Positions 11,220 to 58,432 of a stretch of 64,000 bases of DNA are shown here, piece after piece (position 1 is the stretch's first letter; every line of letters starts with the position of its first letter). This stretch comes from Siphonodentalium dalli (Eukaryota > Mollusca > Scaphopoda > Gadilida > Siphonodentaliidae). Location: positions 188,300,369 through 188,364,368 of the forward strand of contig CP136061.1 of NCBI GenBank assembly GCA_032622095.1. Direction: 5' to 3'. The notes under the pieces were generated by a model that was given only the letters and a program-made list of their open reading frames with translations, was not told the DNA's origin and did no database searches. The translations under genes and the position numbers were made by a program.

Positions 11220-12350
11220 ATTTTTGTATACAGCTTATTGGTGCTGTATTTGTTTATAAAAAAATCGAGTCCCTCAACAGGAAACCTATAAAACCCATAA
11301 ACAATAATTAAAATTTAAATCACACTTGATGATAATGAGAGAACATAGAAACTAAACAATATTACTAACTTAGGATAGTCAAAGATATTTCCGCAGAATG
11401 ACTAACTTGGGTTATTCGTAATGACAAAGTCATAAAGTTAGTCACCATGCCTATGATATTGTTAGTCATATACTAGTATAACTGTGATTGAGGCATAATG
11501 GCCAACTTATCGTAGTCACTGGGAAAGTGAAAATGTAATTTGGTATGAATTTTGTCAAATAATTCCAAGGCTCAACCAGATGATATAACGTCCAGAATCA
11601 GAGACCAAGTTAAATGCAGGCCACTATCTCAATCAAATCTAAAAAAAACACAGATTCTAATACGTGTTTGTACAACAGTTTGTGTTTTCGGTCTGTTTGT
11701 TTGGTTCATTACCGGGATGTGGTATCTATGGATTTTAATATTTTATCCAAATATTGTAGTCTTTGGTGTGGGTTATAAGTTCTGACATATATGGCATTAT
11801 CTCCTACACATTTGTTCAATTATAGATATAAAAGAATCGCGACGCAATGGATACTAAACATTTAACAATGGACACAACACATCATTTAAGACAGTGTTGT
11901 AAATATATTTATTCTGAGTCTATCTTAGGCACAATAAATAAGGTCAGCGTTAGTCATTATTATTGACTCGCGGAAATGTATGGGTTAGTCGCAATGACTC
12001 CAAATGCTTTTGACTAACATACTGACCCGAAGTTTGTTCTCAGTGTAGAAGTAATAACACAGTCCTGCAATGTTAACGTTGCCGGTATATAATAATTGAG
12101 CGCATATTTTCAAGAAAGTATATATGCATAAATATTATTTGATAGCTTGACATGCACAGAGAAATACTTCCGTCGTGACCAATGAATCTTCCTGTGGTGG
12201 ATTTCTGCCTAAGATCCATAATGTACGTCCAATATGGCAGGCGCGCATGACGACACCAGGCATTGTAACGATCTCTTTTGGTGTACATGTCAAATTGCGC
12301 TACAACCATAAGCGTCCCACACATAATCCAAACACGATGGCCTGTTTCTG
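11220..12350. other. 3' flank of SLC1-like gene 1
   Basis: Contains scattered gttagtca and tgactaac motifs in both orientations between 11370 and 12030, suggesting a decayed repeat. No other gene is seen. Confidence 0.4.
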
Positions 12351-12618
12351 TTAAACATGGGTTCCATCCAAACCTTTTTCTGTGCGAACTACATGACCGA
12401 CGACACAGTTCTCTTGTTTTTCGTGTATTTGGCCTGATCCACCAAACTTCCTTTGTGATAATGAAGGATCATTAGGGTTGGTGCCTACATGTACAACATG
12501 GTAAGAAATATTTTCTTTCTCGTGTTCACCTTCGTGAAGAATCTTTTGGTTAAACTGATACGTCACTGCTGTGTTCAGACATTGACCCAGTACGTTACCA
12601 CCTGCTCGGATTCTGTCA
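12351..12618 (-). CDS. SLC1-like gene 1, exon 11 (TM8 and C-terminal tail)
   Basis: Terminal coding exon of 268 bp including stop TAA at 12353-12351. It begins DRIRAGGNVLGQCLNTAV, the TM8 D-R-x-R-T-x-x-N-V-L-G-D segment. Asp456, Arg459 and Asn463 are kept, but the Thr398 and Asp405 positions (GltPh numbering) are Ala460 and Gln467. A hydrophilic tail of about 70 residues follows and ends in Thr-His-Val, a form compatible with a class I PDZ ligand (inference only). An AATAAA on this strand near 11912-11907 is a possible but distant poly(A) signal. Confidence 0.9.
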
Positions 12619-15600
12619 CTGAAAAACAAACATAATATTAAAATCGTGTGTCTCTACCATGAAAGGTTTAGTACAGAAGCAGGTCGAACAGGCAGGAACT
12701 TTTTCCATTAGGAAATATCGTTTACTATTATTTTCAACGATATGGCACATATAATGTCATTTTTTTTTAATATTACACTGCTAAGCTGTGCATGATGTTT
12801 GTCAATTGCAAACCGTTAACGCGACGAATACACCCTCGGTTGGTATGACCGACACAGACGAGAGGCATCCAATTTTGATATCAGATAGATCTTGGCATCT
12901 ATATCGACCAACATCTCAACTTTAACCAACAATTAAATGAGTCAGTCAAAGACGGGAATCGGATTCTCTACTTAACAAAGCGCACGTTTGAGTATAGATA
13001 GAAACACATAATGCAGCTGTTCATCGAGATCTTAGTTCGGATTTTCTGTAGAGTTTTTTAAATTCTTCTGGCGAGATGTTGGAACCTACCTGGTCAGATC
13101 ATTTAATTACGGCATGAAAGTAGGAAAACTATCTGTTACACAGAGGCAGGGAGTAGTAACACTCATCCAAAAAGACAACAAACCACGACAATTTCTTAAA
13201 AACTGGAGATCATTATCATTATTAAATGTGACATATAACATTCTCACAGGAGTCTTATCTGAAAGATTGAAACATGTTCTACCATTTCTAATACATTCAG
13301 ATCAAACCGGATTTATATCCGGACGTTATATTGGGGGAAATGTTCGACTAGTGATGGACATGGTGCCACATACAAAGCAAAATAAAATACCGGGACTCTT
13401 GCTACTGATAGATAGTATTTTATTCGATATCCTGGAAATTTATATTCAGTGTACTAAAGTACTTTAATTTTAGTCAACCATTTATCGATTTTATAAAGAC
13501 TCTTTATTGTGATACTTCATCATGCATACATTTAAATGGACACATATCGGAATTCTTCAACTTAGAGAGAGGATGTAGACAAGGCGATCCAATATCCCCA
13601 TATATTTTTTTATTATGTGCAGAAATTCTTGGTATTATGGTAAGATTCTCAAAAAACATAAATGGCATCAATGTTGGTGATAAGAATATAAGAATGTCGC
13701 AATATGCCGATGATACATTTCTTTTCCTCGATGGGTCACTTGAGTCTCTAGAAGCAGCCATGAATGTACTTGATTGCTATAAATATGTATCGGGTATAAA
13801 ACTTAATTATAATAAAACACATGCAGTGTGGATCGATACAAAGGCAGACAGCACAGAACAAATATGTGACCGATGAAAATTAAACTGGAATTCAGAAACC
13901 TTTAAAATATTTGGTATAGTATTTCATCATGACACTAAACGTATGATTGACATCAATTTTACACACGGGCTTAATCAATTGAAGAACATATTAGCAACGT
14001 AGAATAGCTGTCGTCAAATCGCTAGCTAACTCAAAATTAGTACACCTGTTCCTCGCATTACCGAATCCCACAGATCACCATATAATTTTTTTTAATAAAC
14101 TGCTCTTTGGTTTCATTTGGAACCAAGGCACAGATAGAATAAATAGAAAACTGCTCACACAGAACCATGCTGCTGGTGGGTGCAAAATGGTTGATTTCTC
14201 CGCTCAGATACACCTCATATACATAAATACCCCCATCACTGCCATTCTATTATTTTGTCAACTCATGTATAAAATGTTCATGTATTAATAAATCTGATGG
14301 GAAATAAACAATGTTTAAACCAATACGAGTACAGTTCCATGTGTATTATACTCAAAACATTTAATGCGACGCGCAGTGAATGAGCTCATGTAAACACACG
14401 AAAATCCGAACCCCTCGACACAACTCTCGTCGTCATGCAACACACTCTCCTATATATTGCACATTTACCACCTCACAAAACAACACTTGCTTGACCGCTA
14501 CATATGTGCTGTCAATCCGGACTGTATTTCTGCATATATACACACTCTAGTTATACCCGCCCCACTCCGTGGTCGACAAGATGAGGGAGTTTCATAAGGA
14601 TTTCATAAGTAACACCTGCTATAAACGGGTATGCTATATTCTACCCCTATTCTGTGCAAGCTGGAGTCATTTTGTGTAATGAGAATACAACTAAGGAGCG
14701 TAAACATAATGGATATTATACTCACAGAATCCACTCCACAGCAAACAGCAATGATATTTCCGAGGTAGGAAAGTTCATGGACGTTAGTATTATGAGGATG
14801 CTAACGATGCTGGCACTAGGGACCGGTGCCACTGCCAACGACAAGATTGTCGCCATCAGACTGGAAAAAAAAACAGATGGACAGCTATATGTTCACCTCT
14901 TATCTGTTATGGACTGATCATAGTTCCTCTCCGTCGCTTAATATATAGGCCGTTTGTATTACTTATTATTTGATCATTTCTCTAGCAAACCCCTCTGTAC
15001 TTGTATTATATATTCGGATGTTTAGGGCATTCCCTATATATACTCTTATAACTGAGTGGTAGAATCCATTTAGTAACGAAAGGACCATTTTCAAATATAA
15101 CCAAAACTGTTTAAATTCCGAAACGCTATATTTCCATCACTAAGTAATAATTACTGAGTTATCGATTCATTCCTAACTCATGAAAGGCAGTGACCTCCTT
15201 CTTGGTTTACGTCTATATTCCTTCCTATCTTGATCTCAATAATGAAGACATTGTAGTTTTACAGCCTGTTTTCCCGAAAACCAGCACATTCACAGCTTAA
15301 AATATAACTCGTTTTATGTATATAATATGCCAATAGCCTCGTTTTGAGTCTATAATGTGCTGAAAATTAGAGAATTTAATCACATTATCGACTCATAATG
15401 AGGCGATTCTAAACAGATTATTTGCGTACAATGACACAACTTTTCAGGTGTACGCTCTTTTACATGTGTTTTCACTGTGGCCGGCGCCATAAAACGAAAT
15501 AACGGGTATGAGTCCATTTATCTGCTTATTTCAGAGTCAAATAATCACATTATGTACCAATTTCACATTATAGGTCGATTACGTGCGTATTTGTGCGAGT

Positions 15601-17614
15601 ATATGTTGAGTTTTAAAGTGACACGTAACACTCCGCTGGAGTGATCGAATGAGAACAGTTAATAGAACACCTGTAATAATTTCCTAAGTTTGATATTCAA
15701 CTTAGCAGCACACAACGTCGTTCTACAGTGGAGGAACCATTGGCTTTTGTTTATTTGTCACATATTTACTTGTGTATGTTGGTCGTATATACGGCATCTT
15801 TAAATTTAACCAACATTTTTTTTTTAAATATAAATCCTTCCATTTCGAGGATGCATGTGCGTGTGGCAATGGTCATCATACTCACCCCACCGTGACGTAG
15901 TCACCCAATGTTGGTACAATGCCAGCATATTCGACGAGAAATAAAACAGAAATGACGATGTAGATACCGCTTCCGCCAGCAAACAACGTAACACCGAACG
16001 GTACCGTGAAACAAACGAGCCGTCTGTCCATCTTTTGCTTATACTCCAGCGAATTCATCATGTCTGGAATTGCAACAGCCCTGAAAACCGATAATTCAGG
16101 CAAATATGTACAGTACTGCGAAATGAGTCACCCTTCTAAGATGTGTCCTTTTTACCAGCTCATGCCGTACTTGTCCTCTTGTTTATTTTACAGATATGTG
16201 CAAACGTTATTGCAGTACATGCACATTGCCATTTAATATCGAAAAGTTGATTATTTCATAACAGCGAAGATAAATTCACACAACACTCTCAAAATACATT
16301 ATGTTACATGGCGGTTATCACTATACTATAATGACTTCTCACCCAGGTAGACGTATAGGTTACACTAGTGTAAATGTTTTCCATAGGCCTCAGTGCTAAC
16401 GTTTATTGTGTACTGTTGGCAATATAAATTATGGTTCCAAAATTTTCTTTAAATCTGAAAAATTTACATTTGGGGAAACTTTTTACGTAAAAAAATCATG
16501 TCTGTCTAGCAGGGAATTCGCATTTAAATCTTGTGTTTTCGTAACTAGTGTGAGAACCGCATAAAAAAAATACTGTCATATTTTAGACCACACCAAAAAA
16601 TTCAAACTTCACTACAAAGGATTAATTCCTGTGCCAATGGCTATTTTACCTCTGGGAAATCATAGGGAAGAGGAGTGATGATTTTTTTTATCCAAAAAGC
16701 ACACAAGGCTATTGACCAATCAGGGCCCAGTGTCTATTTTATTCTCTCCTATATATCCGCTAGATGTCACTCCGTACCATATTTACACCAGTGTAACCTA
16801 TAATTCGTATAAATATATTTATCAGTCGGCAAACATCTAAACTCGCATTTATCCTAGTATATGCTCTTATGAAGAATATCATGTTTTCATGGTGGCACTG
16901 GTATCACCACCAAATCAAACCAATGTTAACCCTTTCTATACTAAATATTCATTGATGAGTAGTTCCCATAGGAAATATTCGTCTAACTTAAGTCCACACA
17001 AACGGCCATAGGCATAAGTATGTGCATATGTTATCTGAACATTTCCTGCTACTCCTTCTGTACTTGTATTATCTGCCGTCGGCTTGTTTTTTTCTGAATA
17101 CCCCTCCAAATGAATAATAGACAACTCCAATGTATACTTTTATGAGTGAATTGGATAATGCATTCAGGGTAGGAAGGGTTAACGCCCAGTACAAAGTCGC
17201 AAATACTTACGGTGATGTTGTGGCAAAGCCGACCAGCCATGGTCGGGTTATATCCAGAAAGAAACGAATTGGATTTCGTCGCGTGAATAAAAGTAGAACC
17301 ATTGGGAAGATTCCAAGCTGATATATGGCTTGACCAACCACAACGGCAATAGTCAATCTGCCAACATGTCCAAATACATTTTCGATATCATTGATCGTCG
17401 CTAATGAAGCCATTATCAGGCTGGCTACGCCCACTGGAGTCAACCTGAAAATCACGGAAAATAGAAAGACTTCGCACATCAAACATAATTCAGCTTAACT
17501 CAACAACGATGTGTTCTTAAGATGGTGTCACATCGAAACGGTCTCTTGCATCTCTATCTCACAGAATTTCTCTCTCTTCACTCTAAATATCTCTCTTCAC
17601 CCCCCCCCCCCCCC

Positions 17615-17672
<58 letters not shown>

Positions 17673-20600
17673 ATCACACATTCGCTCTCTCTCTCTCTGT
17701 CTCTATTTCTATCTTCGCTTCTCTGCCTATGCCTGTATATCTCTCCAACATCATAAACCATAGGAATGCGAATTCCTCAATCGTGTCTTAGTCTTACAAC
17801 AGTTAATTATGAAGTTCACATCTATATTTTTAAAAACAGTCAAAATCTTTAAAATACATTTTTGACTATTTTACCGGCCCGAGTGGGTTAAATATATTAG
17901 ATAGACAACATAGGGCAAGACCATTCTGCTTATTTCGGCATTTGAATGGAGTTTTAAGATAATTTCTCTACATTTACAAGTTTTATTCTATACCGATTGT
18001 AAGTTCTATTATATAAATTTGTGTTATATAGAGGATCTCACATGAGTTTCTATTTTATACGGAATTTATCAACCGAGTTCACTAAATTCGATTTGAGCCG
18101 AGGTTTACCGAGGCTCAAATAGAATTTAGTGGACGAGGTTGATAAATTACGTATAATATAGGACGAGTGTGAGATACTTTTTATCACATGATCAAATAAA
18201 CGCGAAGCAATGCGAAATATCCATCGAAAACAACGATAAAAACCGCATCGATCGCAAGTTATTTGAAGAACGATGTGACGTCATCGCACGCGCTGATATT
18301 AAACGTGTGTCTTATCGATAATTATGAAACAGCTTTTATGGGCAAATTATGTGATAAATATATATATGGTGAGAGTCCGATTAGCTCAACAGAAGCGTAT
18401 AAAAATCTCATATTAGTGTGGTAAAGTCATCAGATCTACGCAAAAACAGTACCAAACGCGTGGGTAATTCGGGGGTCAACATTTTACGAACACCAGGTTG
18501 ATCGTTGACACGAATGTTACACACGTGATTTCTATGGAAGACAGATCTAGCAATCATACACATGTATCTGAAGAAATGACACTAATGGCACTTTCACATG
18601 TAGCTGCAAGAAAATTCCAGGTATGCCCATGTGCATGACTTACTTTTCATATGAAAAACATAACACAGGACTTTATCCTAGGGAGACATGTCCCATGTCC
18701 CACGCCCCTGTATGTTTGGTAATGTGATATACACTACAGCCCCACGAACCAAACCAAATCCACAACTCTAGAAAACTTCATATGGGCTCTCAATGAGGTC
18801 ATCCGATTTGCCACAAAACGACAATAATTTATTATATAGAAGCTCCCTATGCACGAGAGCAGCAACGTGGCTACACATGTGTGTATCTCACCCCACACGA
18901 CTACGGTAATACATTTCAACGGTTGGAAATTTCATATAATGAACTTTAAACTCAACTCAAATACCTAACACCCATTTGCGCGTACACGTACGCGATTGTT
19001 GTAACATTTATTTATTTATTAATACTTATGTATGATTATAAAACTATGTCTATATTGTTATTCGTATATATGCTGTGTCATACCGGATACGTCTGGCAAT
19101 TGGAGAATCAATTCTTATTCTGATTCTTGACTTACAATTATAAATATACGTACCACATGGACCATCGAATGACTCGCATGAATATCTCCGATCCAATGCT
19201 AAAGAACTCGAGGAAAGGTTGAGCGCTGGGACCTTGAGCATTGATGGCAATTCCTATCACAATTGAAACGCCAATCAGTCCTGAAATCAGAACACAAGCT
19301 CGTTATCTTATATGTCTTTCTGACACATGCCAATGGCTGCAATAGTGTTAGTAAATCTGGCATTCAGCTGCACATGCAGACATATACTACTTTTTTTTTA
19401 ATCAGTGTTTGTTTTGTTCATTCGTTCAAACGTGACAGAAAGACACACACTATAGTGTAGTTGTCCTTCTTGCCATACACATAATATTATTTATTTTTTT
19501 AAACCTTTAAACTTCGCAACTCTGTGACTTGTACTTTATCCGCACATGTTTTAGAGTTTACAATGTATGATAAGACCAATATATGAAAACATGAATGTTC
19601 CTAGCCATGTCTTTTCATTGTCAAATATAAAACCGCCCAACACCATTTGTACATAAACGATACAATAAAATATGTTTAAACTAAACCATCTGGTATTCCA
19701 CGCCACCTATTAACTACCCTCTTCTTATGTGGGTATAGACATCCTTACATACATACATGTATATAATATGTATACATGATTATGAGAATAAACTGATAAA
19801 CTGGTTGGTTGATTGAAGGAGTTTGCGGACACATACCTAATACATTAGGTGAATCCTTCTTTCCTTCGCTCTTAGAAATCACTGCACGTTCCGTTTCGTT
19901 CTGAGTACTGTTATCTGCGTACTGGTATTGCGTTTGAGCCTGTTTGCAGAATAAATGTAAAGATATTACATTCTTGTAAAACACCGCACATTACACATTC
20001 TGACTGATTATGTTTCAAAAAGAATGGTGTACAAATGAGCCTAATAGTGTCAGGATCTAGTGACATCAACCCCCCGGTGTGTAGTATGTGCATGTGTAGC
20101 ACATGCAGAGCTCCGGAAAATATATTACTTTTTCCAACAACGCTACTTTGGTTTGATTTATTTTGGGCTTATCGTTGTTTCAGTCGCTAGAACATATCAC
20201 GACATTGTCTGTTTTTAGCTGGAGGAAATACCGCGAAAAGTGTTAATTTTAAACATAAGAAAGAAAAAATAATACCCAACAAATATTAGAGGAGTCATAC
20301 AGAACCCAACTTTCTGAATGAAAACATTCTTAAATTTCACGATTACAAGCTACAAGGCATGGCAATTCTTGAACCAGTGTTGCTCTCAATTAAATAGTCA
20401 CTCGATCCTTTCGCTATTTCAGGTTATGTACCTTTCATGGCAGTTTTTAATTTCCAATCAATTTCCATACTTGCTGTGAACGCTATTTCCAGAAATTTCT
20501 TTCAAAAACTTTATCGAAGTAATTTTTTTTTTAAATGTTTATTGTTATATGGCATGGCGTAATTTCATATTCGGTATAACATTAACTTGCATAATGCCAA

Positions 20601-23600
20601 CACATCAGGCTGATATGATATATCAACTTTCTATTTTCCAATTTGGAAAGTGGTTTTTCATTGTAGTAGGCAAAATATCAGCCAATTAAACATTGACATT
20701 GAAATATTGACATAATAAAAACGGATAAAGTGTTCGTCGATATTAATGACGGAAATTGGGATTATATATTTAACAAAAATAATTGAGATAATTTGCCATG
20801 TATTATGTTGTTCGGTTATTTACAATTTTATACGCCCATAAAAGTCATAAATGCAACAAAAAAGCGTTGATTGCATATATCTACGAGCCAACTTCGCCAT
20901 AGCTAAACGGGGTATGGCGGTCTGGTGAGCTGTGAACTTTACCAACTGAGCCACCGCACCCCTCCAATAACGCTCAAGCTGAACATGACCTGATAACATT
21001 TTAACAGGAGGATATATGGTTCAACTATTTTTGGTCTTTTTGATTTTAGAAATGCTTCCATCGTTTTCTTGGTGGAGCTGAGACCCACAGGGGGTAGTTT
21101 CTCTATCGAACTAAACCGGACATAGAAACTTTTAAAAAAGCTACCGACAATCTTGCCATGTGCAGGAACCAACTTTAATCAAGTTACCTTGTTTGTAACA
21201 GTTTACTCAACTGTACTGGCAAGATATTGAGCCAACTTTTCCATTTGTGTGTCGCAGCCTTGGTGGTTCATGACGACGATTTTATATGTATCTTATTGAC
21301 TGTGTAACCATATTTTTTATTTCAGATTCCATTTATAAGTAAAAGAAACTTATATTTCTCACTTACCTGTCTAAACCCCACTTCCACTATGTTATCTGGA
21401 ACAATATTTCTGCAAGTACATATATACAATTACTAGTGTTTTCTAAACGGAACGAACTTTCAACGTCGCATGTAATTGTGCACGAATGACTGAGTATATA
21501 ATTATTGTATGGGAACTGGAATTGTCAGTATAACTTTCATTAAATGATAAGTGAGCTATTTATACAGGTATAACCACATGAATGAATCACAATGACATTA
21601 TTCTGTCTATTTACAATAGTATAAATGTGTATTGAGTTTTATGAATCCAACTTATGATATGACATAATTATAACTGGTTTTATTTAGTTAGCAACTTACC
21701 TGATAAGGTCAACAAACACATCCTGTGACTCTATTGAGTCTCGTCTTGTCCCCTTGACTGCGCCTCCGCCACCCTTTCCTGTATTTCAGAGAAGTTCATA
21801 AATTGTTGAAATAATGGTGTATATTAAAGTGTACCTGTAATCATGTATGTACAGGTATGTACATGTATATATGTATGGTCGTAAATTGATAAAATTGTAC
21901 GCATTGGCACCAGAGAAGCCCCTCCCACCTCCTCGAAACCCAAAAGATAACCGCTAGAACCACAATTATGACACTAGATCCCTTTACCTGCAACACATAA
22001 CCTCTCGTAATAACCTGATTTTGAAATAGGAAAAGACATAAAATGGGTGCCGCCACGTGTCACGAGTCGTTTTTTATTATCACGTGTTGTTGTCTAACTT
22101 TAGACAAACCCAGTTGATTACATTATGTATGTTATAGCAGTGGACGGACCAGGGTAGTGAAGGGACAGAACTTGCAGTTTGAGTGGACATGGCACCATGT
22201 CCAACGTTCATTATTACGAAAACTAATTAGGTCGAACATTTTCGTTGGAGGTATGTGCTGTAAGATTTATGTTGACTTTCGAAGAAGCAAATTTGACAAC
22301 TTTTGCTACTTAAAGGCACGTGAGGCCTTAGTTGTCGAAAATATTCATATTTGTTCTAATCACCGTAAACAGAAAAACATTAAAACGCATACAGTTTCGT
22401 TCATATATACCATGACCATCACGTAAACAGCATGTTATCGTAAAGACCTACTATATTTTACCTAAGCAAGAGCCTGATTGTGTTACAGAAGACAGCACAA
22501 TGCTACTGGCTAATCACACACAAATGGCATAAACGCTCTTTATTATTTCCATATCAGGAATTCACCAACAAAGAACGCTCTTTATGTTTACTATCATAAT
22601 ATAAACAAACACCAGAAAAGTAACTTTTTATGATTTTGTTTACATAACAATGGTCAAACATTTGACAATAACATACTGTTTATGCGATCTTTCTTATTTG
22701 TATACGGACAAAGTATGTCTACATTTTGATGTTCTTTCTGTTTGTGGCGGCTTTTGACGGGTGGAAATATTTTCACAGGATACCCACCGCCAAGGCCAAC
22801 CGTACCTTTAATGACTTCACATACACAATATCATAAAGAATTGCTGTAATCCCGCCACCATGCGGACAATGATGCGTGTACAAAATAAAGAGCGTTTTTA
22901 ATTGTTTACGATTTTTAATTTTTTTACTCTATTGTAGAAATTACCCGCCAGGTAAGAACACATATTCCACTTAATCCTTAGTCCCAAAAAAGACACACAA
23001 TTCAGGTTTGGTAATGTAATTGAAAAAGTAAAGCTAGTTATTTTATATATGCGCATATAATTGTGAAATGCGTTACTATAAATTCTAATATAATGCGAAG
23101 GGCCTCCGTTATAAATTACTAATCATTACTTGAGAAAGTACGGAAGCATGGAGCCGCGACATACAAAAATAAATTCCACGCCTAGATCGTAGTTACGCCG
23201 ATGGTCACATACAGGGTGAATATAGGCAAGGAGACCAAGTTTCCTCTGCATTAACACACTCGTGCCCTACTTAAATATGTGCATTTCTGGTCAATGGTGA
23301 ACTGAGAATGGTGTTTCCCTTGGTCAATTGTGGACAAATTATTTTTCAATATGATGATATACAAAGAACAAAATCAATACAGGGGTTTGGAGACTGATCA
23401 GTTCTTATCAGGGGAGGACATGATTTTGTTGTATAGATTTGTGAGCCGAGACCTGCCCTACCTTTTACATTAAGGGCTATATGGGAATAATATAGAATAA
23501 CTTATGTCGTTTATCTTGTAATATTCCTTTATAACCACATCTCAGACAGTAATTTAGAAGATTTGAGCACACACATAGTGACTAAAAGGCAAGGGGTCCA

Positions 23601-25617
23601 AGTTTCCCCGCCTTACCCCACACCTGCCCTGCTTCCAAATATACATTTCTGATCATTAATTTCTGAGAATCGTCTCTAACTTGGTCAATTGTGGCTAAAC
23701 CTATTGCAGTATGATGAGATGCAATGAATAAAATTAAAACAGGGGTTTGGAGACTAACATTCTTATCAAGGAGCTGAAACATGAATTTCATAGATTTGGG
23801 AGGCGAAACCTGCTTTTACATTAAGGGCTATGCAAATAATATAAAACCATTGATGAACTCAGTCATTTGATATTCGTTTAAAACCACATCTCAGACAGTA
23901 AAGTTCTATAAAAGTTTGAGCCACATACAAAGGGACTAAATGAAATGGGAACAAGTTTCCCCTGCGTTACTACACACCTGCCCTATACCTCAAAATGTGC
24001 ATTTTCTGATTATGCATATGTGTATATTTAGGTAGGACTGTACTAGGACATGTATGGTAAGATTAACTACATAAATTATTCTATATTATTCCCATATAGC
24101 CCTTAATGTAAAAAGGTAGGCAGGGTTCGGCTCCCAATTCTATAAAAAAAATCAGTCCCCCCCCCCCCCCGATATGAATTGATCAGTCTCCAAACCCCTG
24201 TTCTGATTTTATTCTTTGTATACCCTCATATTGAAACATAAGATTGTCCACAATTGACCAAGGGCAACACCATTCTCAGTTCACTAATGGCCAGAAATGC
24301 ATTTATCATGTCACCTGGTTGGATCGACCAATGAGGACGCTCCGTTGGTAGAGGCATATCAGGAGACATCGGGTCGTCATCTTTGTAGCCCGTCCCATAT
24401 GGAATCCATATCCCCAGGTCAGCGATCACATATGGGGTCGATGTCCGCCATTTTGTTTTTCATGGAACTCTGCCGCTTCGGGTATAATTTCGGTGTATTT
24501 TGGCGCCAAGAAAAGGGATATCTGTCGGAAATCAAGTTCTGTTAATTTAAAGACATAGTACCATATACCAAAACCTGCATGTGATATATTTGAGAAATTC
24601 TAAACACTCATAAATTAACTATCAATCTCAAGTTTGTTGTCCTGCTTCTGGTGATTAGCCATTGACTCAATGCGTTGACGTCCAACGCCCATGACGCGTC
24701 ACTGTGACGTTACATAAGTTAATAGCCATAGACAACAAATTTACTTACTGGCAGGTAATGAACTTCGTATAAGTAATTCAAATTCTCACACGGAAAACAT
24801 GATAGGTGGGTGACATGATAAAATCGTTACAGGGCTCGTTGTTGCCGGCTACGGTGACATATGACACGGCTACGGTGACATATGACACCGTATCCGGCAA
24901 CAACTCGCCCTGTAACTTATAGTTCAGGTGGGTCAGGAGTGTGTTAATGCAGAGGAAACTTGGTTTCCTTGGTTTTATTCACCCTGTATGTGACCATCGC
25001 GTATATCCGCCGATGGTCGGCGTAACTACGCCGATGATCGGCGTATATCCGCCGATGGTCGGCATAACTACGCCGATGATCGCAGTATATACGCACATAA
25101 TAGGCGTATATACGCCAAGGTTCGATGTAACTACGCCGATCACCGGCGTATATTCGCCGATCTAGGCCTGGAATTTGTTTTGTATGTGGCGGCTCCATGC
25201 TTCCGTAAGAAAGAGTAATGCTTGTATGCCATTACGCATTACCCCATTCGGACTGCACAACCATGCGTTGTAAACATAGACAAACATATACCTGGTCGGA
25301 AGGCAAGAGATATGCCAAGTGCAAGCATCACCAACAGCATGTGCATCAACATGATGCAGGTGAAGGACGTTGCCGTTATTCGTCCATTCTCTTTCGGATT
25401 CAGTTTGGCTGCCCCTGAAGCGACATACCACATCGATTATTAATTTATTACACCAGTCATATTCACCAGATGTCATTTTCCATCATCCGCTTACTGCCAA
25501 ATCCGTCTTCTCGTTGACATATAAAAATAAAAATATATACATCTGTTAGTTAGAATGTACTAATATTGAGAATAAAATATGTTGACACCAAATTTCCTGT
25601 CTGTTCACTCTCTCTCT

Positions 25618-25695
<78 letters not shown>

Positions 25696-28600
25696 ATAAT
25701 ATGTTTTTCACAAAATCGAATACGTCCTCACTTCTAACGGCCATAATTCACAAACGCCTGAACCAATTCCTACGATTACAACGATTTACAAATATGGTAC
25801 ATACAAATATCTATAGGATAAACAGTTCGACAACAGTAACAATACGAAGAACATACGCGACAAGGTGGCCTCACTTTAGTACAGGAGAAAAATAAACCGT
25901 CGATTTCGAACTCAATATTTATCGGGAAAAGAACCCAACTTTTGTTCAAAATTTCTACATGTATCAGCATGTATCGACATATCTAATGTCAATCTGCGCA
26001 AATCAATCGCATATTTGAATCCAAGTATCCAGTTTTTATGGCCATTAGAAGTGAGGACGTATTCGATATAATAATTTTACTCGTTTTTAACGACACGCCC
26101 CTGTAGGAAATCATTGTTATATTACGATAAAACACTTCAGGCGAAATTGTTGACACTCTTCCTCAAATGGTACTTCGTGCTTGTCAAAAAAATATTCCAA
26201 ACTAAACTTTGAACCAACGATGAATGAATATATCAAAATATTAAATTATTTATGTTTAATGATTTCCATAAGAATTTATACTTGAGTGACTCAACCTGAG
26301 TTTGTGTCGTTTTTTTCAGATTGTTTCAGAAGTCTTGCAGAAACGAGCATCCATTTTGAGTAGTACCTCCCAAGTGTTAGTTTGACTTTGTTTTGTTTGT
26401 GTGTCTTTATTTCTGTTCCATTTAATAAAACAATACGAAGGAAATTTCCACATACGAGACCCTATAACTTGTGTGCTTGATTATCTAGATATGACCGATT
26501 ACTTTTATTTTTGTCTACTCATAATTATTTTAACCACTTCCATACTAAATGGATTACACAACCAGTTATAAAAGTATACAATGGAATGGTATATTATTAA
26601 TCTTGAGGGATAGTCAGGTAATAAAAGCAGACGACAGACAGAAAAACGGATAATACAAGAGCAGAATGCTTGATATTCATTGGTGTGAAATGTTTAGATT
26701 ATAGATCGTTTGTTGAACATGTCATAATGGAACTACTCGTCTTCGTATTTAGTAGAGAAATTGTTAAATAGGTACTCAGAGTTCGACGCCAATGTTTATG
26801 GAACTCGTTTTGCTTTTCATTTACACGTATAGCCAAACAAATAGCTTGCTAACAAGTTTAAACATTTTTTTCTAATTATTCGTTGCACCCATTCAATTGA
26901 CTAACTTTCATAAAAGTAATGACCGAAATCACCCCTCTTACCTGTTATTACACTGCATGCAATCACGGGTAATATCAAAAGTTTCAACGCACGTAAAAAC
27001 AGCTCCCCGGGTAACCCTGAAAAGTACAGATTAATTATCTTTATACATCAACTTTTACCGTCAAAATATAAATCGTATGCCCACTCACATTCATGTAAGT
27101 GTTATTACACATTCAGGATAGCATTGCACTCTTAACATTTCTGAGTAAGTATTGTGTTGCGTGGTCCACAATTATCCTTGTGCGTTAAAAAACAAAGTTA
27201 TAACTTTCGGAAACACTTTCTGACGGTGGTAGGTGTAACCAGGAATGTTGCAAGAAGGTCCACGATCCTTTAAATTCCAATTGCACCCATCTCCAATGAA
27301 CCAGATCAGACCAGACCCAACTCTCATTTTCGTGAAATTATATTTGCACCCCCCCCCCCCGGCCTTTGGTTGGAACTTTCGGACCGATGAGAATAATTTC
27401 AACCTATATATGATGGAAATTTTAACCAATGTTGTGTCGGGCACGCAAGTTCCAACTGTCTACTAAAGTTGTGTGTGTTAGACAACCCCTACCCCCTCTC
27501 CTTTCGCCACGTCACTGTGCGTAACCATATATGTTTCACTGCAGTTTGAGTCATTAACGCCACCGGTGTATACTGTGGGCCAAATTATAAAATTGCATGG
27601 TCCTATGTAGGTTTTATAAATATATTGGGTCGCTTTAAAAGCTCTAGTGCTACCCCGAATGCGGTTATTTTGGGACGCGTTAAAGTTGTACTGCAACCCC
27701 GACTCCGGTAAAAGCTGTAGTTGGAATGTCCAAGTTCGTGAAAGTTCTAATAACTATGCCGATGATTTGAGAAGCTTTATTGTTTTAGGATATTGTAGAA
27801 AGGCTAATCTGGCCGAGTCAAATTGAGCTATATTGATGGGATATCTCGCAGGACAACACATTTCGAGTTGTCGTGGGGTGTGTATTCGCTGGATGCCTTA
27901 TAGTTGCAGTATGTAACCATTATGACCGCGTTAATTGCTTTCGATGTTTAGGTATGAACAATGGCTGGGCCATGCACTCTTGGCGGGAACACAATACCTC
28001 CGATTTTTTATCCGCATTTAGAAGCTTTCTGGTGTGGTGAATGAGAAACCTGCAGTAATAAGCCGTAGTTTTTTGTAATAATTTGAAGGATTAGTTGTTT
28101 TAACGGAATTCTAAGGCGGTGCATTCATGTAACCAATATATTTTATATTATAATTTATATTTGTGGCTAATAATATGATCTTGGTGGCGTTACCATTTCT
28201 GACTATGGTTTTCTTGTAACATACTGGCGTAGACAATATAATCAGCAGACGAGTTCCGAGTACCGTGTGATCGGAGAATTCAGATGACGGCTATCAAGAC
28301 TTCGAACCTTTATTTATTTATTTTTTATTTTTTTTGCAATTTTTCGTCATATTAGTTCACTTGACAAAACTTTCGGCAATTTCAACTAAAGTGTCACGGT
28401 TTTGCACCGTCGAACACATGTTTAGATAGCTTGTCATTTGAAGTTCGGCTCATAACTCGTTTGAATAAATTCAGATGTCAACGCGATCGATGTGTTGGAA
28501 CTGTCATCGGGGATTCACTGTGCAGACATCGGGGATTCACTGTGCAGACATCGGGGATTCACTGTGCAGACATCGGGGATTCACTGTGCAGACATTTTTT

Positions 28601-34600: not shown

Positions 34601-37600
34601 ACGTCGTGGATTTTTCTGGATTAAAAGGTTTAAGGGTTGATGAATATCCATCCATCTTTTTATAATGTTATATGCGGATGACACTATAGTGATAAATCAA
34701 TAGTGATAAGAGAAAGATTATGATTTTTATGAGAAAACCGCGTTAAACAAACACATTTAAACTTCATGGAAGCAGTATCGGTATCTGTGAACAGTATTTC
34801 ACGTACGGGGTACTTTTGGAGCCGAGAAGAATGAGCGCTGTAGATCAGCGAAAAAAGCCATGTTTTCATTGATTAACAAAGTCAGGACTCACAAATAGAT
34901 ATTGGGGGTATAGTAGAAATGTATGAGAAAGCCATTGTACCTACTCTTCGTTATGGCTTGGAAATATGGGGATTTGAACATATTGAGGGAATATGTAAGT
35001 TAGTACGTTGGTTTTTGAATTTAATTTGTCATAAAAAAGACAACACCAAATGTTTTTGTTTATGGGGAGTTAGGTGTATAGCCTACCGATTTAAAAATAA
35101 AACTAAGGTGCCTTGGCTATTGGGGAGATTGATTATGGGAAATAGCTGTAAACTAGCATATAAACTGTATTGTATGATGTATGCTATTCATGATTCTAAC
35201 CAAATCGAATACCCTTAGATTGACTATGTGAATACGACGCTTTGTGAACATGGCATGATGGAAATCTGGACGTATCAACATGTACAAAACATTAATTGGT
35301 TTTACGAAACTTGTAAGAGGACGTTATGTGACCTTTATATACAGAAATGGATGGGAAATATACGATCCTCTACTAAATGTATTTTCTACAATCAGATCAG
35401 GTGCGATTTTATTAGACCTAAGTACTTTTCACTTCCATGTATCAGCAGTGTAACAATACTGATGAAATTCAGAACCAGAAATCATAAGTTAGCGATAGAA
35501 ACCGGATCGTGGAATAACATAAGTCGCTTTCAGATAGTCTGTTCACTATGCGAGCAAGGTCTTGGTGATGAATACCATTTGCTCTCACATGTGGAATTCT
35601 TAAAGAACTAAGAGAAAAATATATTGCTAGATATTTGTACAATGACCCGACCATATCAAAGTTGATTAAGTTATTCAATACACACGACGAAGAAACAGTC
35701 ATTAATCTCGCGACATTTATTCAGAAAGCGACGGCGAATTTGCAACCATCTCTGACATTGATAATCTATAAATGTACAATGACCGGTAGTGGTCCTAGTA
35801 CGCTGAATATATACATGTATATGGTGTTACATTCAATTTCGTATATTGCATTTATGTATTGTTACTTACCTTATACATGTGTATATATGTATTATGACAC
35901 TCACTTGATTATGTATACTCTCTTGTGAAGAGAGAGAGAGATATAATGAATTATTAAAACTTGAAATTAAAAAACTTGAAACTATATCAACAGTAACAGA
36001 AAAGGTTGAACCTAGTACAAATATTTCGATATCGTTTTTAATGTGTACTGAAACGCTTGAACGTATACATTTTACCTGGATTCTCCCAGTATGTAAATAT
36101 GCCTCAACAGTCTTGGATAATTGTCCAAAATATTTCAACAGTTGGAAATTTCATACCTGCCAAAACATTAGTTGGAATGGTCATCAGTTGGAAATTTTCC
36201 AACATTAGGGGGGTGACAGGTTGGAAATTTCCAACACTTGGAAAGCTTGTGTCCTGGTCCTCCCCCGTGGATAGTCAAAACTGATACTAAATTTAAGAAA
36301 ACAATATTGTCATACATTTGGTCAACATTGTCATTGGAATTGTCATCATTTGGAAATTTTCCAACCTAAGTGGGGGGTGTCAGGTTTGAAATTTCCAACT
36401 CTAAGAAGACTTGAGGCTAGTCTAGATGCTAGGATTTTGCGATTTTCTTGTTCAGATTTCAAAATTTTCGAACACCGGGCCGAACCATGGTCTGCCCGGT
36501 GTGTCACTGTCCCTCCCCCGTGACCAAAACAAAACTGCTAATTAGTTTAACAAAACAATAGTTTAGTACATTCGGTCTAACTTGTGGACTGAAATGGTCA
36601 TCAGTTGGAGAATTTCCCAACCTAAGAGGGAGTATGAGGTTTGATATTTCCCACACTAGGGAAGCTTCAGTTGAGGCCAGTCCAGATGCTAGGATTTGCG
36701 ATTTTCTTGTATAGTTTTCCAAATTTTCTCACACCGGGCTGAACAAACATAGACGGACACAATGTCCTGGTCTCTTACCCGTAGCCGTGTGCATTTGTCT
36801 GGAGTAGGCTACTAGATGTTAGGATTTATGCAATTCTCAGGTTAAAGTATCTGAATTTTCTTATACCGGGCATATAGAACAACATAGGATATTAGGCCTG
36901 AGGACTGATGTGCAAGGGGGTGCAAATGGAATTATGCAAAACTTGTGTTATTCTGATTCAAGGGGGGTGCAAATGGAATTTCCCAATGTGGACACCCCCA
37001 AACGGAGTCCCTCTAGCCACATCCCTGAGTGCGACATCCCATGTTGAAATATGGTAAAATTCGTCAGAGCATTAAAAGCGGCATAATCCATCTAATGAAT
37101 ATCGACAGATTTATGGTTCGTCTTCCTTTTCCCGAGTTGAAGAGTTCTCTCAACTTTAAAGTGTTATGATTTCGGTAAAAAAAACATATGGTGATATGTA
37201 TTTCTGACGGAGGTCATTTAATACTGATCATTTCAGTATCTATAATGTGAAATTCGTCGCCCAGTTGTGACTAACACTAGGTATATTTACGCTCAGAATA
37301 GTTTATAACGCTTACGGATCCAGTTTAACTCGGAGGTGGTGGTTTCTTGTTCTGACCCGCAGAATGCTTGACACGAGCTTATTACCTACGCTACCAAGGT
37401 ACATCTCTTTGTCGAAATCTGTTTTTGTTATTCGATAGAGGGCGTATTCACTTGAAGTTGAGGTATAGCCCCTCCATTCTTGGATATAGTTATCTTCCAG
37501 TTGTGGATTGGATCAAACCTTAATCAGCAAGAGTAGACTTTTATTTTTATTTTAAGCGTTTATAGCATAATGGTATGTGTGTGTATATCCTGAGTATCTG

Positions 37601-38334
37601 AAGCGCAGAGCTTCCCCCCCCCCCAACACGCCAAGTAATATAATGGTTAGTTTCAGTTCCATGCACTCTCGACAACATATATAACTATTTATAATTACCC
37701 CACCAAACATAAGCCTTATGCATGTGAATCTTATTTGGTGGGAATCTATAAAGTGATTTTGACAAGAATTGTTTGAAACGCTAAATGCAGAAACCCGTAT
37801 GTGATTGTTTTAGCTTTGGTTCGTTAATTACGCTTGCGTATGATCATATTAATGTATATACGCATGAGAGTAAACTCGATAAGTTACGTGCTATTAGTGT
37901 TACATGTGTGTATTGTACATAGATTTTGTAATATGCGGCATGAACCAACATGCAGACTGAAGCTATAAACTTTGCCTTGTTCCTAGACTAAAAACGTTTT
38001 GCTCTAATTAAAAGTTGTTATTCTTTTAATAATTCTATTAATTAGTGAAATATTTTAAAACATAATAATTGTATATATACTCACGGATCCACGTGACCGT
38101 TGTAGGTGATGGGTTACTTTCTCTTATGAGGAAACCTGCACCAAATCCAACAGCAACGGAGATGATAATAAGTATCAGCAGAATATTTTCTTTCAGGAAT
38201 CTGCCACACTTCCCTCTACAACTGTGTATTTGGCCAACATTTTCTTGAGTTGGCACTATTCTGTATTGCTTCATTTCATCGCCTGTGTGACAAATTTGTT
38301 CTGTTATTGCATTGTATATTACGTTGTGGCTCAT
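12351..38334 (-). CDS. Divergent SLC1-family transporter-like protein, gene 1 (11 exons, 543 aa)
   Basis: Assembled by eye from exons 38334-38085, 27016-26942, 25414-25292, 21778-21700, 21409-21367, 19939-19837, 19280-19154, 17444-17211, 16080-15886, 14860-14726 and 12618-12351. All introns are GT-AG, phases match at every join, and the total of 1632 nt is divisible by three. The protein follows the SLC1 order: TM1 (about 50-70), LPGELFLRALKLLILP (TM2, 85-100), TM3 (about 122-147, ending FRPG), a glycosylatable loop, NVLGLIGVSIVIGIAI (TM4), SMWLTPVGVASLI (TM5), HP1, TM7, HP2, and TM8 with DRIRAGGNVLG. Length is typical of the family. SLC1 proteins are plasma-membrane trimers that carry glutamate or neutral amino acids with Na+. 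Here the residues for Na+ and substrate are mostly replaced, so transport, coupling and substrate cannot be predicted. A paralogue lies upstream in the same orientation. Family membership is near certain; function is not. Confidence 0.93.
12871..12996 (+). pseudogene. LINE RT fragment in gene 1 intron 10
   Basis: The forward frame reads IDLGIYIDQHLNFNQQLNE, then SVKDGNRILYLTKRTF. This is the L-G-I-x-I-D-x-x-L-x-F-x-x-H-I segment C-terminal to the RT palm of non-LTR elements. It is antisense to the host gene. Confidence 0.6.
13033..14280 (+). pseudogene. L1/Tx1-like LINE reverse-transcriptase fragment
   Basis: Several forward frames in order read GKLSVTQRQGVVTLIQKD, NWRSLSLLNVTYNIL, DQTGFISGRYIGGN, LLLID, GCRQGDPISPYIFLLCAE, SQYADDTFLFLDGS (catalytic YADD), FKIFGIVF, then LLFGFIWNQGTDRIN. 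This is the RT palm to thumb of an L1/Tx1-type non-LTR element with frameshifts and a deletion near 13430. Inserted antisense in intron 10 of gene 1. It lacks endonuclease and a 3' end, so it is inactive. Confidence 0.9.
14726..14860 (-). CDS. SLC1-like gene 1, exon 10 (HP2 and start of TM8)
   Basis: A 135-bp exon with donor GTGAGT encoding residues 410-455. The stretch after LMATILSLAV reads APVPSAS where canonical proteins have GAAGIPQAG. It continues IVSILIILTSMNFPTSEISL and LLFAVEWIL, matching L-V-T-M-V-I-V-L-T-x-V-G-L-P-x-x-D-I-T-L-I-x-A-V-D-W-x-L. The GltPh Asp390 position is Glu452. Confidence 0.93.
15333..15407. repeat. Imperfect hairpin (75 bp) in intron 9
   Basis: The left arm, tagcctcgttttgagtc, pairs with gactcataatgaggcg, and taatgtgc with cacatta. 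No coding content. Confidence 0.65.
15886..16080 (-). CDS. SLC1-like gene 1, exon 9 (HP1-TM7)
   Basis: A 195-bp exon with acceptor TTTCAG and donor GTGAGT encoding residues 345-410. AVAIPDMMNSLE matches the family's S-A-T-L-P-x-T-x-x-C-L-E; MDRRLVCFTVPFGVTLF matches V-D-K-R-x-x-R-F-V-L-P-x-G-A-T-x-N. The NMDGT sodium signature is replaced by Phe378-Ala-Gly-Gly-Ser382. The paralogous exon at 63548-63742 has the same length. Confidence 0.95.
17211..17444 (-). CDS. SLC1-like gene 1, exon 8 (TM5-TM6-HP1)
   Basis: A 234-bp exon with donor GTAAGT encoding residues 267-345. LTPVGVASLI is the TM5 W-x-x-P-x-G-I motif, then LTIAVVVGQAIYQLGIFP (TM6), then FTRRNPIRFF, close to the family's TRKNP-x-x-F. 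It ends GFATTS-P where canonical members have F-G-T-S-S-S-S in the HP1 tip. The serine-rich, substrate-contacting tip is therefore altered. Confidence 0.95.
17587..17710. repeat. Poly-C and CT microsatellite in intron 7
   Basis: About 18 C residues (17600-17617) followed by a CT dinucleotide tract with a few interruptions. Confidence 0.97.
18051..18160. repeat. Hairpin / foldback MITE (110 bp) in intron 7
   Basis: The arms pair almost throughout: ttatacggaatttatcaacc with ggttgataaattacgtataa, and actaaattcgatttgagcc with ggctcaaatagaatttagt. Flanking gatctcacatgag and tgtgagatac extend the symmetry. Confidence 0.85.
19154..19280 (-). CDS. SLC1-like gene 1, exon 7 (TM4c-TM5)
   Basis: A 127-bp exon with donor GTACGT encoding residues 225-267. 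LIGVSIVIGIAINAQGPS followed by QPFLEFFSIGSEIFMRVI and RWSMW matches the SLC1 block V-x-F-S-I-V-F-G-I-A-L through N-E-x-I-M-K-L-V-x-x-I-M-W. The final Trp codon is split TG|G with exon 8. Confidence 0.92.
19837..19939 (-). CDS. SLC1-like gene 1, exon 6 (TM4 extracellular loop)
   Basis: A 103-bp exon, phase 0 at its start, donor GTATGT, encoding residues 191-225. It holds the variable loop, with NST (200-202) and NET (204-206) N-glycosylation sequons. This is the loop that is glycosylated in animal SLC1 transporters. It ends PNVLG, which joins to LIGVSIV in exon 7 to give the conserved NVLGL motif. Confidence 0.88.
20930..20968 (-). repeat. tRNA-derived SINE head (partial)
   Basis: The minus strand reads ggtgcggtggctcagttgg, then taaagttcacagctc, a tRNA-like 5' half with an A-box (TGGCTCAGTTGG). 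No convincing B box or full cloverleaf, so it is treated as a SINE relic, not a tRNA gene. Confidence 0.45.
21367..21409 (-). CDS. SLC1-like gene 1, exon 5 (micro-exon)
   Basis: A 43-bp micro-exon between TTGCAG and GTAAGT. It encodes NIVPDNIVEVGFRQ (177-190), a clear match to the family's N-L-F/V-P-x-N-L-V-x-A-x-F-x-Q block at the start of TM4. It is easily missed by ORF-based calling because of its length. Confidence 0.9.
21700..21778 (-). CDS. SLC1-like gene 1, exon 4 (TM3-TM4 linker)
   Basis: A 79-bp exon with donor GTAAGT encoding residues 150-176. A Gly-rich stretch, KGGGGAVKG, precedes DSIESQDVFVDLIR, which aligns with the amphipathic VDALLDLIRN segment of SLC1 proteins. The split arginine codon AG|A continues into exon 5. 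Confidence 0.85.
22310..22811. mobile_element. TTAA-flanked MITE, family A (about 500 bp), intron 3
   Basis: Bounded by TTAA on both sides. The left end is ttaaaggcacgtgaggcctt; the right end, ccaaggccaaccgtaccttt, is its degenerate complement. The interior matches the copy at 40350-40851 in reverse orientation. A TTAA target and short inverted ends suggest mobilisation by a piggyBac-type or other TTAA-specific transposase (inference). No coding capacity. Confidence 0.85.
24826..24916. repeat. Hairpin within the 2-kb element
   Basis: gttacagggctcgttgttgc pairs with gcaacaactcgccctgtaac. The loop contains two direct copies of ggctacggtgacatatgaca. Confidence 0.85.
25003..25162. repeat. Array of self-complementary CGCCGAT-GGTCGGCG units
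   Basis: About eight half-units of roughly 21 bp alternate between tatatccgccgatggtcggcg-like and taactacgccgatgatcgg-like forms. Each unit is itself a short palindrome, so the array can fold on either strand. It lies at the right end of the 23139-25207 element; one degenerate unit is present at the left end near 23193. Confidence 0.9.
25292..25414 (-). CDS. SLC1-like gene 1, exon 3 (TM3)
   Basis: A 123-bp exon encoding residues 109-150. AAKLNPKENGR takes the place of the usual ALDSKASGR segment, followed by a hydrophobic TM3 ending LALGISLAFRPG, like the family's VIIHPG. By ungapped alignment from that PG, the Tyr-x-x-Thr-Thr/Ser positions that help form Na+ site 3 fall on Ile129, Met132 and His133, so the site residues are absent. 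That alignment is mine and could shift by a residue or two. Confidence 0.9.
25607..25692. repeat. CT microsatellite in intron 2
   Basis: An almost pure CT tract of about 86 bp with a single interruption. Open frames across it are artefacts. Confidence 0.98.
26942..27016 (-). CDS. SLC1-like gene 1, exon 2 (TM2)
   Basis: A 75-bp exon between TTTCAG and GTAAGA. It encodes residues 84-109, LPGELFLRALKLLILPVI and ACSVITG, which is very close to the conserved SLC1 TM2 signature (PGEL, then L-x-x-LPLI, then SLITG). The split codons at both ends (C|GG and G|GG) fit exons 1 and 3. Confidence 0.93.
27017..28504. other. Proximal part of intron 1, no gene seen
   Basis: AT-rich sequence with a short poly-C at 27350-27360. 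No coding exon or repeat that I can support. Confidence 0.4.
28505..28592. repeat. 22-bp tandem repeat, four perfect copies
   Basis: Four identical units of catcggggattcactgtgca plus ga. The absence of substitutions implies recent expansion. A short GT tract follows at 28638-28656. Confidence 0.97.
29613..29749. repeat. Hairpin element (137 bp), intron 1
   Basis: The outer arms attacttggttggtttgata and tatcaaaccaaccaagtgat pair, as do inner ctcggtaacc and ggttacctc. A diverged relative lies at 30668-30712 (ttggtttgatatt and aatatcacatcaacc). Confidence 0.85.
30043..30641 (-). pseudogene. LINE RT 3' end remnant
   Basis: The minus strand first reads LLIDWNKLPSFVIDS (the W-N-x-L-P motif after RT), then SPECQCGFPWEDASNFFFHY and PLFTNQRR, the zinc-finger-like end of non-LTR ORF2. 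A stop and frameshift separate the two parts. Same strand as the host gene, inside intron 1. Confidence 0.85.
31561..32070 (+). pseudogene. LINE endonuclease-to-linker remnant
   Basis: Frames in order read WIEVHIDNPDPVLYRPPNTN, then NLIILAADFNEIYRM (the endonuclease G-D-F-N region with Gly changed to Ala). After a gap comes KRRIWNFVVQLTKHEGMSF, resembling the K-R-T-I-W linker that precedes RT. Degenerate. Confidence 0.65.
32320..33400. repeat. Diverged tandem array of about 150-bp units
   Basis: Roughly six units share cccatctagnggtcacccg, gatccgtataaagtttggtg, gaggatgtggcctgta, and caagatggccgctggcggcc followed by atgtt. Units are 70-85 percent alike by eye. A related fragment is present in reverse orientation at about 59545-59712. 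Open frames in it are not genes. Confidence 0.85.
33930..34180 (+). pseudogene. Jockey-like LINE RT fragment
   Basis: Frames read FSKVNSLLKSYLSNKPQRVF, then IDKESCNWAIVTTVVPQASV, then TNDITPG and ANDTSIFL. The pattern L-K-S-Y-L-S-N-R-x-Q...V-P-Q-G-S-V-L-G-P...N-D-I...F-A-D-D-T is RT palm; the second catalytic motif is degraded (ADD to AND). Confidence 0.75.
34370..35800 (+). pseudogene. Second LINE: RT palm to C-terminus
   Basis: In order: GNIFNVIRNMYSNGKSYV, VRQGDNKSPLLFALY, GLKGLRV, MLYADDTIVI (catalytic YADD), then EKAIVPTLRYGLEIWGFEHI, then RTRNHKLAIETG, CSLCEQGLGDEYHLL. Two longer open stretches survive at 34919-35218 and 35228-35611. Frameshifts and stops show it is inactive. A different lineage from the fragment just upstream. 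Confidence 0.88.
36110..36860. repeat. Diverged tandem repeat, period about 255 bp
   Basis: Two and a half copies contain ttggaaattttccaac, ggggggt and cagtccagatgctaggattt blocks (for example 36205, 36355, 36605; and 36415, 36668, 36810). Confidence 0.7.
36861..38084. other. Distal part of intron 1, no gene seen
   Basis: No further exon or repeat that I can support, apart from a short poly-C near 37614-37624. Confidence 0.4.
38085..38334 (-). CDS. SLC1-like gene 1, exon 1 (N-terminus and TM1)
   Basis: Encodes residues 1-83 plus the first base of codon 84. The start is the first ATG after an in-frame TGA at 38361-38359, so the N-terminus looks complete unless an upstream non-coding exon splices in. 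A 45-residue cytoplasmic-type N-terminus leads into CGRFLKEN and a hydrophobic helix (about 50-70), then NPSPTTVTWI, matching the position of the short pre-TM2 linker of SLC1 proteins. The donor is GTGAGT. An alternative start is Met21. The following intron is 11 kb and full of repeats. Confidence 0.85.
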
Positions 38335-58254: not shown

Positions 58255-58432
58255 CTACAAAGGAGTTACGTGCGATTCGGTGGCCACCGCGTGGTTGGAC
58301 ACTCCCTTTTCAAGATCGCTGTCATCTTCCAGTTCGTTTGGAATTTCTAGTAGGTGATCCTTGTTGAACTGATAGGTCAGAGCTGTATTCAGACAGTGTC
58401 CCATGGAATTGCCAGCTGAACGGATTCTGTCT
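58255..58432 (-). CDS. SLC1-like gene 2, last coding exon
   Basis: A 178-bp exon after TTACAG encoding DRIRSAGNSMGHCLNTAL, then TYQFNKDHLLEIPNELE and an acidic tail ending VTPL. Asp, Arg and Asn of the TM8 motif are kept; the Thr398 position is Ser and the Asp405 position is His. TYQFN is identical to gene 1. The stop lies at 58257-58255. Confidence 0.9.

Follow-up and report, generated by a model that had tools for sequence, protein, structure and literature searches.

The loss of ion coupling in secondary transporters is an open question; for bacterial SLC1 proteins it has lately been addressed by reconstructing ancestral proteins (Reddy et al., 2025, PMC12668577). According to the available part of that report, coupling passed from Na+ to H+ by way of an ancestor able to bind and exchange aspartate in the absence of Na+; of the sequences in the clade descending from it, 16% keep all Na+ ligands and none carries the full H+ signature, which is given for the ExtH proteins as a change of Thr or Ser at 92 to a hydrophobic residue, M311L, D405N and a putative S279E. 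The same text describes residues 295 and 327, one at either end of TM7, as tuning or switching the coupling, and AncInt as having lost coupling with its Na+ ligands intact (PMC12668577). Roles in the Na3 site are described for N310, D312, T92, S93 and Y89 (PMC3302783, PMC5110648, as available to us), and roles of R397, N401 and the NMD loop are described as well (PMC12668577). The N310A and D312A mutations of GltPh, like their EAAT2 equivalents, are described as abolishing uptake (PMC3302783). Site numbers here are those of GltPh, transferred through an alignment to EAAT2. We take D394, S278, G359, D390 and the Glu of TM7 to be functional site positions in SLC1 as well.

Among the matches listed in the open PMC literature, at the level of titles and abstracts, no animal SLC1 protein without NMDGT is reported. 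Three EAATs among six glutamate transporters have been described in the oyster, and the available part of that paper mentions no such loss (PMC11545548). This literature weakly suggests that an animal SLC1 protein without Na+ sites is novel. Here we describe three such genes, S1, S2 and S3, in the scaphopod Siphonodentalium dalli.

A tandem cluster of SLC1 genes

The window (the whole stretch of DNA analysed, 64,000 nucleotides, C1:188300369-188364368) belongs to a genome that was searched as 2.2 Gb in 9 contigs. Rebuilt from the sequence, S1 occupies 11 exons on the minus strand (38334-12351), with 1632 coding bases including the stop and a product of 543 aa; all ten introns are GT-AG and there are no internal stops, which bears out the original prediction of an intact SLC1 gene of eleven exons and 543 residues. 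Exons 4 and 5 are too diverged to be spotted alone and were located by tblastx against S2 and S3, and exon 6 was also matched in both paralogues by tblastx conservation. The exons of S1, and those of S2 that fall inside the window, are as follows.

38085..38334, minus strand: S1 exon 1; start codon, N-terminus and TM1; GTGAGT donor; the SDF match begins at residue 52
26942..27016, minus strand: S1 exon 2; TM2; S105 kept, at the position of GltPh Ser65/EAAT1 Ser103
25292..25414, minus strand: S1 exon 3; TM3; Na3 residues Y89/T92/S93 changed to I129/M132/H133
21700..21778, minus strand: S1 exon 4; start of the TM4 region; SQDVFVDLIR; placed by tblastx against S2/S3 and by splice phases
21367..21409, minus strand: S1 exon 5; RNIVPDNIVEVGFRQ; placed by tblastx against S2/S3
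19837..19939, minus strand: S1 exon 6; TM4 loop; two N-x-S/T sequons, NST and NET
19154..19280, minus strand: S1 exon 7; TM4c-TM5
17211..17444, minus strand: S1 exon 8; TM5-TM6 and start of HP1
15886..16080, minus strand: S1 exon 9; HP1 tip and TM7; FAGGS replaces NMDGT; E395 at GltPh 327
14726..14860, minus strand: S1 exon 10; HP2 and start of TM8; VPSAS, E452
12351..12618, minus strand: S1 exon 11; TM8 with D456, R459, A460, N463 and Q467; C-terminus; stop
63548..63742, minus strand: S2 exon 9; YAGCS replaces NMDGT
62501..62635, minus strand: S2 exon 10, in the second gene of the cluster
58255..58432, minus strand: S2 exon 11; His at Asp405; stop

Searching the entire genome at the protein level brought up two paralogues of S1, arranged in tandem with it, on its strand and with its exon plan. 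S2 (C1:188461145-188358623, 472 aa) has its exons 9-11 inside the window and the remainder beyond it, and is followed by S3 (C1:188528441-188474126, 478 aa); each has 11 exons with the phases of S1 and no stop, bringing the cluster to 33 exons without a stop or frameshift. The starts of S2 and S3 are in-frame ATG codons chosen in exon 1 and are less certain. Protein identity is 66.5% between S1 and S2, 57.4% between S1 and S3 and 61.0% between S2 and S3.

Against the Pfam SDF profile (PF00375), S1 scores 269.6 bits (cut-off 27.9) over positions 1-384 of 387, a nearly full-length match that therefore covers the TM1-TM8 sequence and both hairpins; all three cluster proteins match the profile at E <= 0.001, the best at 1.1e-81. 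At the Rfam gathering score, no match was found in the 64-kb window.

Intron 10 of S1 holds a dispersed repeat (window 13038-14195), present at 87-89% identity in at least 37 further places among the best 40 of 15974 candidates, and a frame within it resembles a reverse transcriptase as judged by eye only. The 3' portion of S1 (exons 9-11; window 10500-16335 at least) recurs, 99% identical in DNA, at C9:141762455-141772313. This copy carries the altered exon 9 motif, has ~4 kb more sequence than S1 at window position 15046, and is probably truncated, because exons 1-8 gave no match there.

Residues at the ion and substrate sites

The residue table of S1 agrees with most of the substitutions first proposed for this gene: NMDGT (310-314) is F378-A-G-G-S382, D405 is Q467, T398 is A460, D390 is E452 and Y89/T92/S93 of TM3 are I129/M132/H133, with D394, R397 and N401 kept as D456, R459 and N463. 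Two further losses came to light: Met311 is replaced by Ala379, and Ile386 stands where EAATs have their proton-site Glu. In HP1, the tip had been read as TSP in place of SSS, a register one position off: TSP corresponds to 276-278, and Ser277-279 align to S344-P345-A346, so that Ser277 is kept and S278 is replaced by Pro345. The HP2 sequence, V423-P-S-A-S427, was read correctly, but the size of the change was overstated by comparing it with IPQAG; IPSAG is what EAAT2 and the EAAT2-like gene of this genome carry, so the main change in this hairpin is Gly359 to Ser427.

These features extend to the whole cluster. The NMDGT positions read FAGGS in S1, YAGCS in S2 and QASGS in S3, so the family motif is absent from each, and in all three proteins (residues in the order S1/S2/S3) N310 (F/Y/Q), D312 (G/G/S), D405 (Q/H/H), M311 (Ala) and the TM7 Glu are lost. 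Furthermore, S93 is His and D390 is Glu throughout, and T92 is M/S/M. Among the Na1/Na3 ligands N310, D312, D405, T92 and S93, none of the five remains in S1 or S3, and S2 retains only a Ser at 92. The loss of the Na+ sites that had been proposed for S1 thus holds for all three proteins, which have lost the Na1 side chains (D405, N310) and those of Na3 (N310, D312, S93). The companion proposal, that substrate-site residues had been lost too, was half right. The amino-acid ligands D394, R397 and N401 are all present in every cluster protein, as are S277, T308 and P356; the changes are Thr314 to Ser, which is conservative, and Ser278 to Pro/Thr/Thr.

For comparison we used eight canonical proteins, five from the same genome together with EAAT1, EAAT2 and ASCT2. 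Position 327 is Glu in all three cluster proteins and Gln in all eight canonical ones. In total, S1-S3 share 55 residues that none of the canonical proteins has at the same position, including H133 (93), A379 (311), S382 (314), I386 (318), E395 (327), S427 (359), E452 (390) and N470, and the cluster therefore has a conserved design of its own. The initial observation on one gene is in this way confirmed and extended to a conserved trio.

The loss of sites occurs within a protein that has diverged broadly. The alignment has 274 gap-free columns, and the eight canonical proteins agree in 81 of them; S1 has changed 40 of these and all three cluster proteins have changed 32. Columns changed in all three make up 8 of the 13 ion- and substrate-site columns, on a site list of our own making, versus 24 of the 68 other invariant columns (Fisher p = 0.12), and we therefore claim only site loss within a broadly diverged protein, not targeted loss. 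The 32 changed columns show no sign of weaker constraint and no clear excess of identity either: S1-S3 agree with one another in 19 of them, compared with 144 of the 274 columns overall.

Comparison with described SLC1 proteins

EAAT2/GLT-1 (SLC1A2) shares with the cluster D394, R397, N401, a PSA-type HP2 and an SDF match over the whole profile. It is 32-37% identical to the cluster proteins over the 274 core columns (96 identical in S1, 87 in S2 and 101 in S3; 71-101 of 274 across all eight canonical proteins), and differs from them in that the cluster has lost NMDGT, D405, S93, the proton-site Glu and Gly359. ASCT1/ASCT2 (SLC1A4/A5) are also SLC1 members that depart from the common pattern, at position 397 of TM8 and at the Glu of TM7, which is Gln in ASCT2. 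ASCT2, which was the one aligned, keeps NMDG(A), D405 and T92/T93 with Thr at 397, whereas the cluster keeps Arg397 and loses the others. The H+-coupled DctA and GltP families give the best NCBIfam resemblances of S1 (82.6 and 70.6 bits), but these scores are far under the curated cut-offs (513 and 638 bits) and the H+ signature residues are missing.

The bacterial ExtInt and AncInt proteins (PDB 9bgy, 9bgz, 9bh0), as described in the available part of their report, resemble the cluster in combining the SLC1 fold with neither an Na+ nor an H+ signature (PMC12668577). Indeed, Na+ and H+ signature residues are both missing from S1-S3, the combination by which ExtInt is recognised. AncInt differs in keeping all Na+ ligands, whereas the cluster is nearest the animal EAATs and carries Glu at 327, where AncInt has Gln, and His at 93.

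Canonical genes in the same genome and the origin of the cluster

The genome profile scan listed 63 SDF exon matches; it proceeds exon by exon, and diverged members may escape it, as did the TM7 exons of S1 and S2. Among the TM7 exons that it listed outside the cluster and its C9 copy, NMDGT is found in 13 of 13. A single locus in near-identical copies accounts for six of these, and another three (C3:269.6M, C1:273.6M, C1:275.4M) appear fragmentary or damaged, so that the 13 represent about five distinct canonical genes, all five of which keep D405 in their last exons.

In an unrooted tree of S1-S3 and the eight canonical proteins (316 columns, LG+G4), the cluster is split from the rest by a branch of 1.19 substitutions per site with support of 100/100. 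This branch attaches beside EAAT2, with the EAAT2-like gene at C1:239.2M branching next, at a weak support of 88.4/66 and with long-branch effects possible. Gene structure supports this placement independently: the cluster and the C1:239.2M gene share, in position and in phase, the intron between exons 2 and 3, after (L/V)IT(G) in TM2, and the one between exons 6 and 7, which separates (A/L)G from LI ahead of TM4c. Both are missing from the gene at C3:286M, and the TM1-TM3 stretch is a single exon in the other three canonical genes. The intron between exons 1 and 2 of the cluster, however, is absent from the C1:239.2M gene, which counts against an EAAT2-like origin. Searched against solved structures, a profile of S1-S3 matched EAAT2 best (332 bits, 7xr4), with EAAT and ASCT chains at 271-332 bits and AncInt at 162; this ranking and the shared introns speak against membership in the bacterial ExtInt clade. 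Taken together, the weakly supported tree position and the two shared introns suggest an EAAT2-like ancestor.

Possible functions of the cluster proteins

Of the four functions first offered for S1 (uncoupled carrier, channel, receptor-like protein or regulatory subunit), we would favour the uncoupled carrier. S1-S3 may well be Na+-independent elevator carriers or exchangers for an acidic amino acid or a dicarboxylate, a reading to which we give roughly as much credence as doubt. The proteins would still be trimeric elevator carriers, with a substrate pocket that would form without Na+; an acidic substrate, gripped by R397, D394 and N401, would move downhill or by exchange, with no coupling to Na+ and probably none to H+ or K+. 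The fixed His at the Na3 ligand position Ser93 and the fixed Glu at TM7b position 327 might substitute for Na+, holding TM3 against TM7. A narrower form of the proposal, which we offer tentatively and consider doubtful as it stands, is that H133 in the Na3 cavity and E395 at the coupling position keep the pocket permanently in a high-affinity state, yielding a Na+-independent glutamate/aspartate exchanger or a ligand-gated anion conductance that would work beside ordinary EAATs.

The cluster resembles, in an EAAT-type animal lineage, the combination found in bacteria: no Na+ signature, no H+ signature and a changed residue 327. Several points count against a carrier. The S278P change in S1 presumably removes a backbone NH that contacts the alpha-carboxylate. 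Since the N310 and D312 mutants do not transport, loss of these residues alone kills known members. AncInt lost coupling with its ligands intact and is therefore a precedent for the outcome in S1-S3 and not for the route. The argument from position 327 is itself weakened, as canonical EAATs share Gln at 327 with AncInt, yet are Na+-coupled.

Perhaps, instead, the cluster proteins move no substrate and act as anion channels, receptor-like sensors or subunits that modify canonical EAATs. This is a serious rival, because N310A and D312A abolish uptake and AncInt kept its ligands, and we consider it possible rather than probable. EAATs have a built-in anion conductance, the Ser65/EAAT1 Ser103 position (S105 in S1, counted from EAAT1 T131) is Ser in all three proteins, and divergence runs all through the protein, with 40 of the 81 canonical-invariant columns changed in S1, which is what one would expect once selection no longer maintains the transport cycle. 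The fixed D394, R397 and N401 would, however, have less reason to persist without a ligand. Furthermore, the EAAT1 Arg388 position, which we assume to be correctly placed in S1-S3 by our own count on the alignment, is C/R/R and not acidic. In EAAT1 itself, Asp and Glu mutants of Arg388 are described as locking the channel open (PMC5472439).

It is also conceivable that the carriers were re-coupled, with H+ driving transport through the new His133 and Glu395 in place of Na+. Both residues are new and fixed in all three proteins, and bacterial members of the family are described as using H+ (PMC12668577). The published H+ signature is nonetheless missing from S1-S3, where position 92 is M/S/M, M311 is Ala in all three, D405 is Q/H/H and 279 is Ala in all three; the sole fit is T92M in S1 and S3, and we regard H+ coupling as unlikely and set it aside.

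Whichever function applies, the trio appears to be a natural experiment, in which the Na+ ligand positions vary (F/Y/Q, G/G/S, Q/H/H) and the amino-acid ligands are fixed. Should S1-S3 transport, SLC1 transport can survive the loss of NMDGT; should they not, they would be conserved 'pseudo-transporters' whose role in glutamate handling is to be found.

Constraint and integrity of the genes

S1-S3 are old, constrained genes. Pairwise NG86 estimates of dN are 0.231 (S1-S2), 0.340 (S1-S3) and 0.306 (S2-S3), with dS at 2.83 (S1-S2) and 3.59 (S1-S3) and not estimable for S2-S3, synonymous sites being saturated. Over 469 shared codons, the overall omega is 0.111 (GY+F3X4), with 0.091 for exons 1-7 and 0.122 for exons 8-11; given the saturation of dS these values are approximate. 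Neutrality is still clearly rejected: with omega fixed at 1 (kappa 2, same topology) the lnL is -4641.0, versus -4422.9 with both free, which is 218 log units worse. The original suggestion that an open frame argues for function is thereby backed by three old open copies with the same exon plan and an omega of ~0.11 among S1-S3, far from the value near 1 that had been named as the mark of a pseudogene.

Pseudogene and artefact readings are therefore unlikely. A decaying pseudogene or a chance reading frame might be suspected from the recent partial copy on C9 (exons 9-11, 99%), which indicates that copies are made and broken in this genome; we nevertheless give it very little credence, as it conflicts with three open copies, with 33 exons free of stops and frameshifts, and an omega of 0.11 with the neutral value rejected. 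Still less credible is alternative splicing that restores the canonical motifs, as a six-frame search of the window for NMDG-like motifs (N[MILV]DG[TASC] or [IV]NMDG) found none (one interrupted by an intron would escape), the genome scans list no canonical TM7 exon in the cluster (weak matches may escape) and the altered motif lies in exon 9 of each gene between conserved splice sites.

Duplicated SLC1 genes and other observations

One canonical SLC1 gene, with the same exon spacing throughout and 30.7 kb from the first to the last exon found, occurs at six places on five contigs: C6:224985081-225015780, C6:46658100-46688810, C3:199614847-199645541, C2:156916351-156947025, C8:10703641-10734334 and C9:48078891-48109584. 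Compared with the first of these, the remaining five copies show 99.8-100% identity across the 551-571 bases that surround the TM7 exon, and a further first exon lies at C9:48122885. The pattern suggests that a transporter gene was carried along in a large duplication, mobile or segmental, of recent date. Fragmentary SLC1 copies, some of whose matches contain stop codons, lie at C8:183623688-183624562 and C3:269585977-269592505.

The search of viral contigs gave 104 pattern matches and no relatives. On nuclear contig C1, positions 108127492-108128832 hold a copy of mitochondrial COX1, adjoined by an ND2-like frame, which is either a mitochondrial insertion or an assembly join. The COX1 frame is open with TGA read as Trp, which fits an invertebrate-type mitochondrial code.
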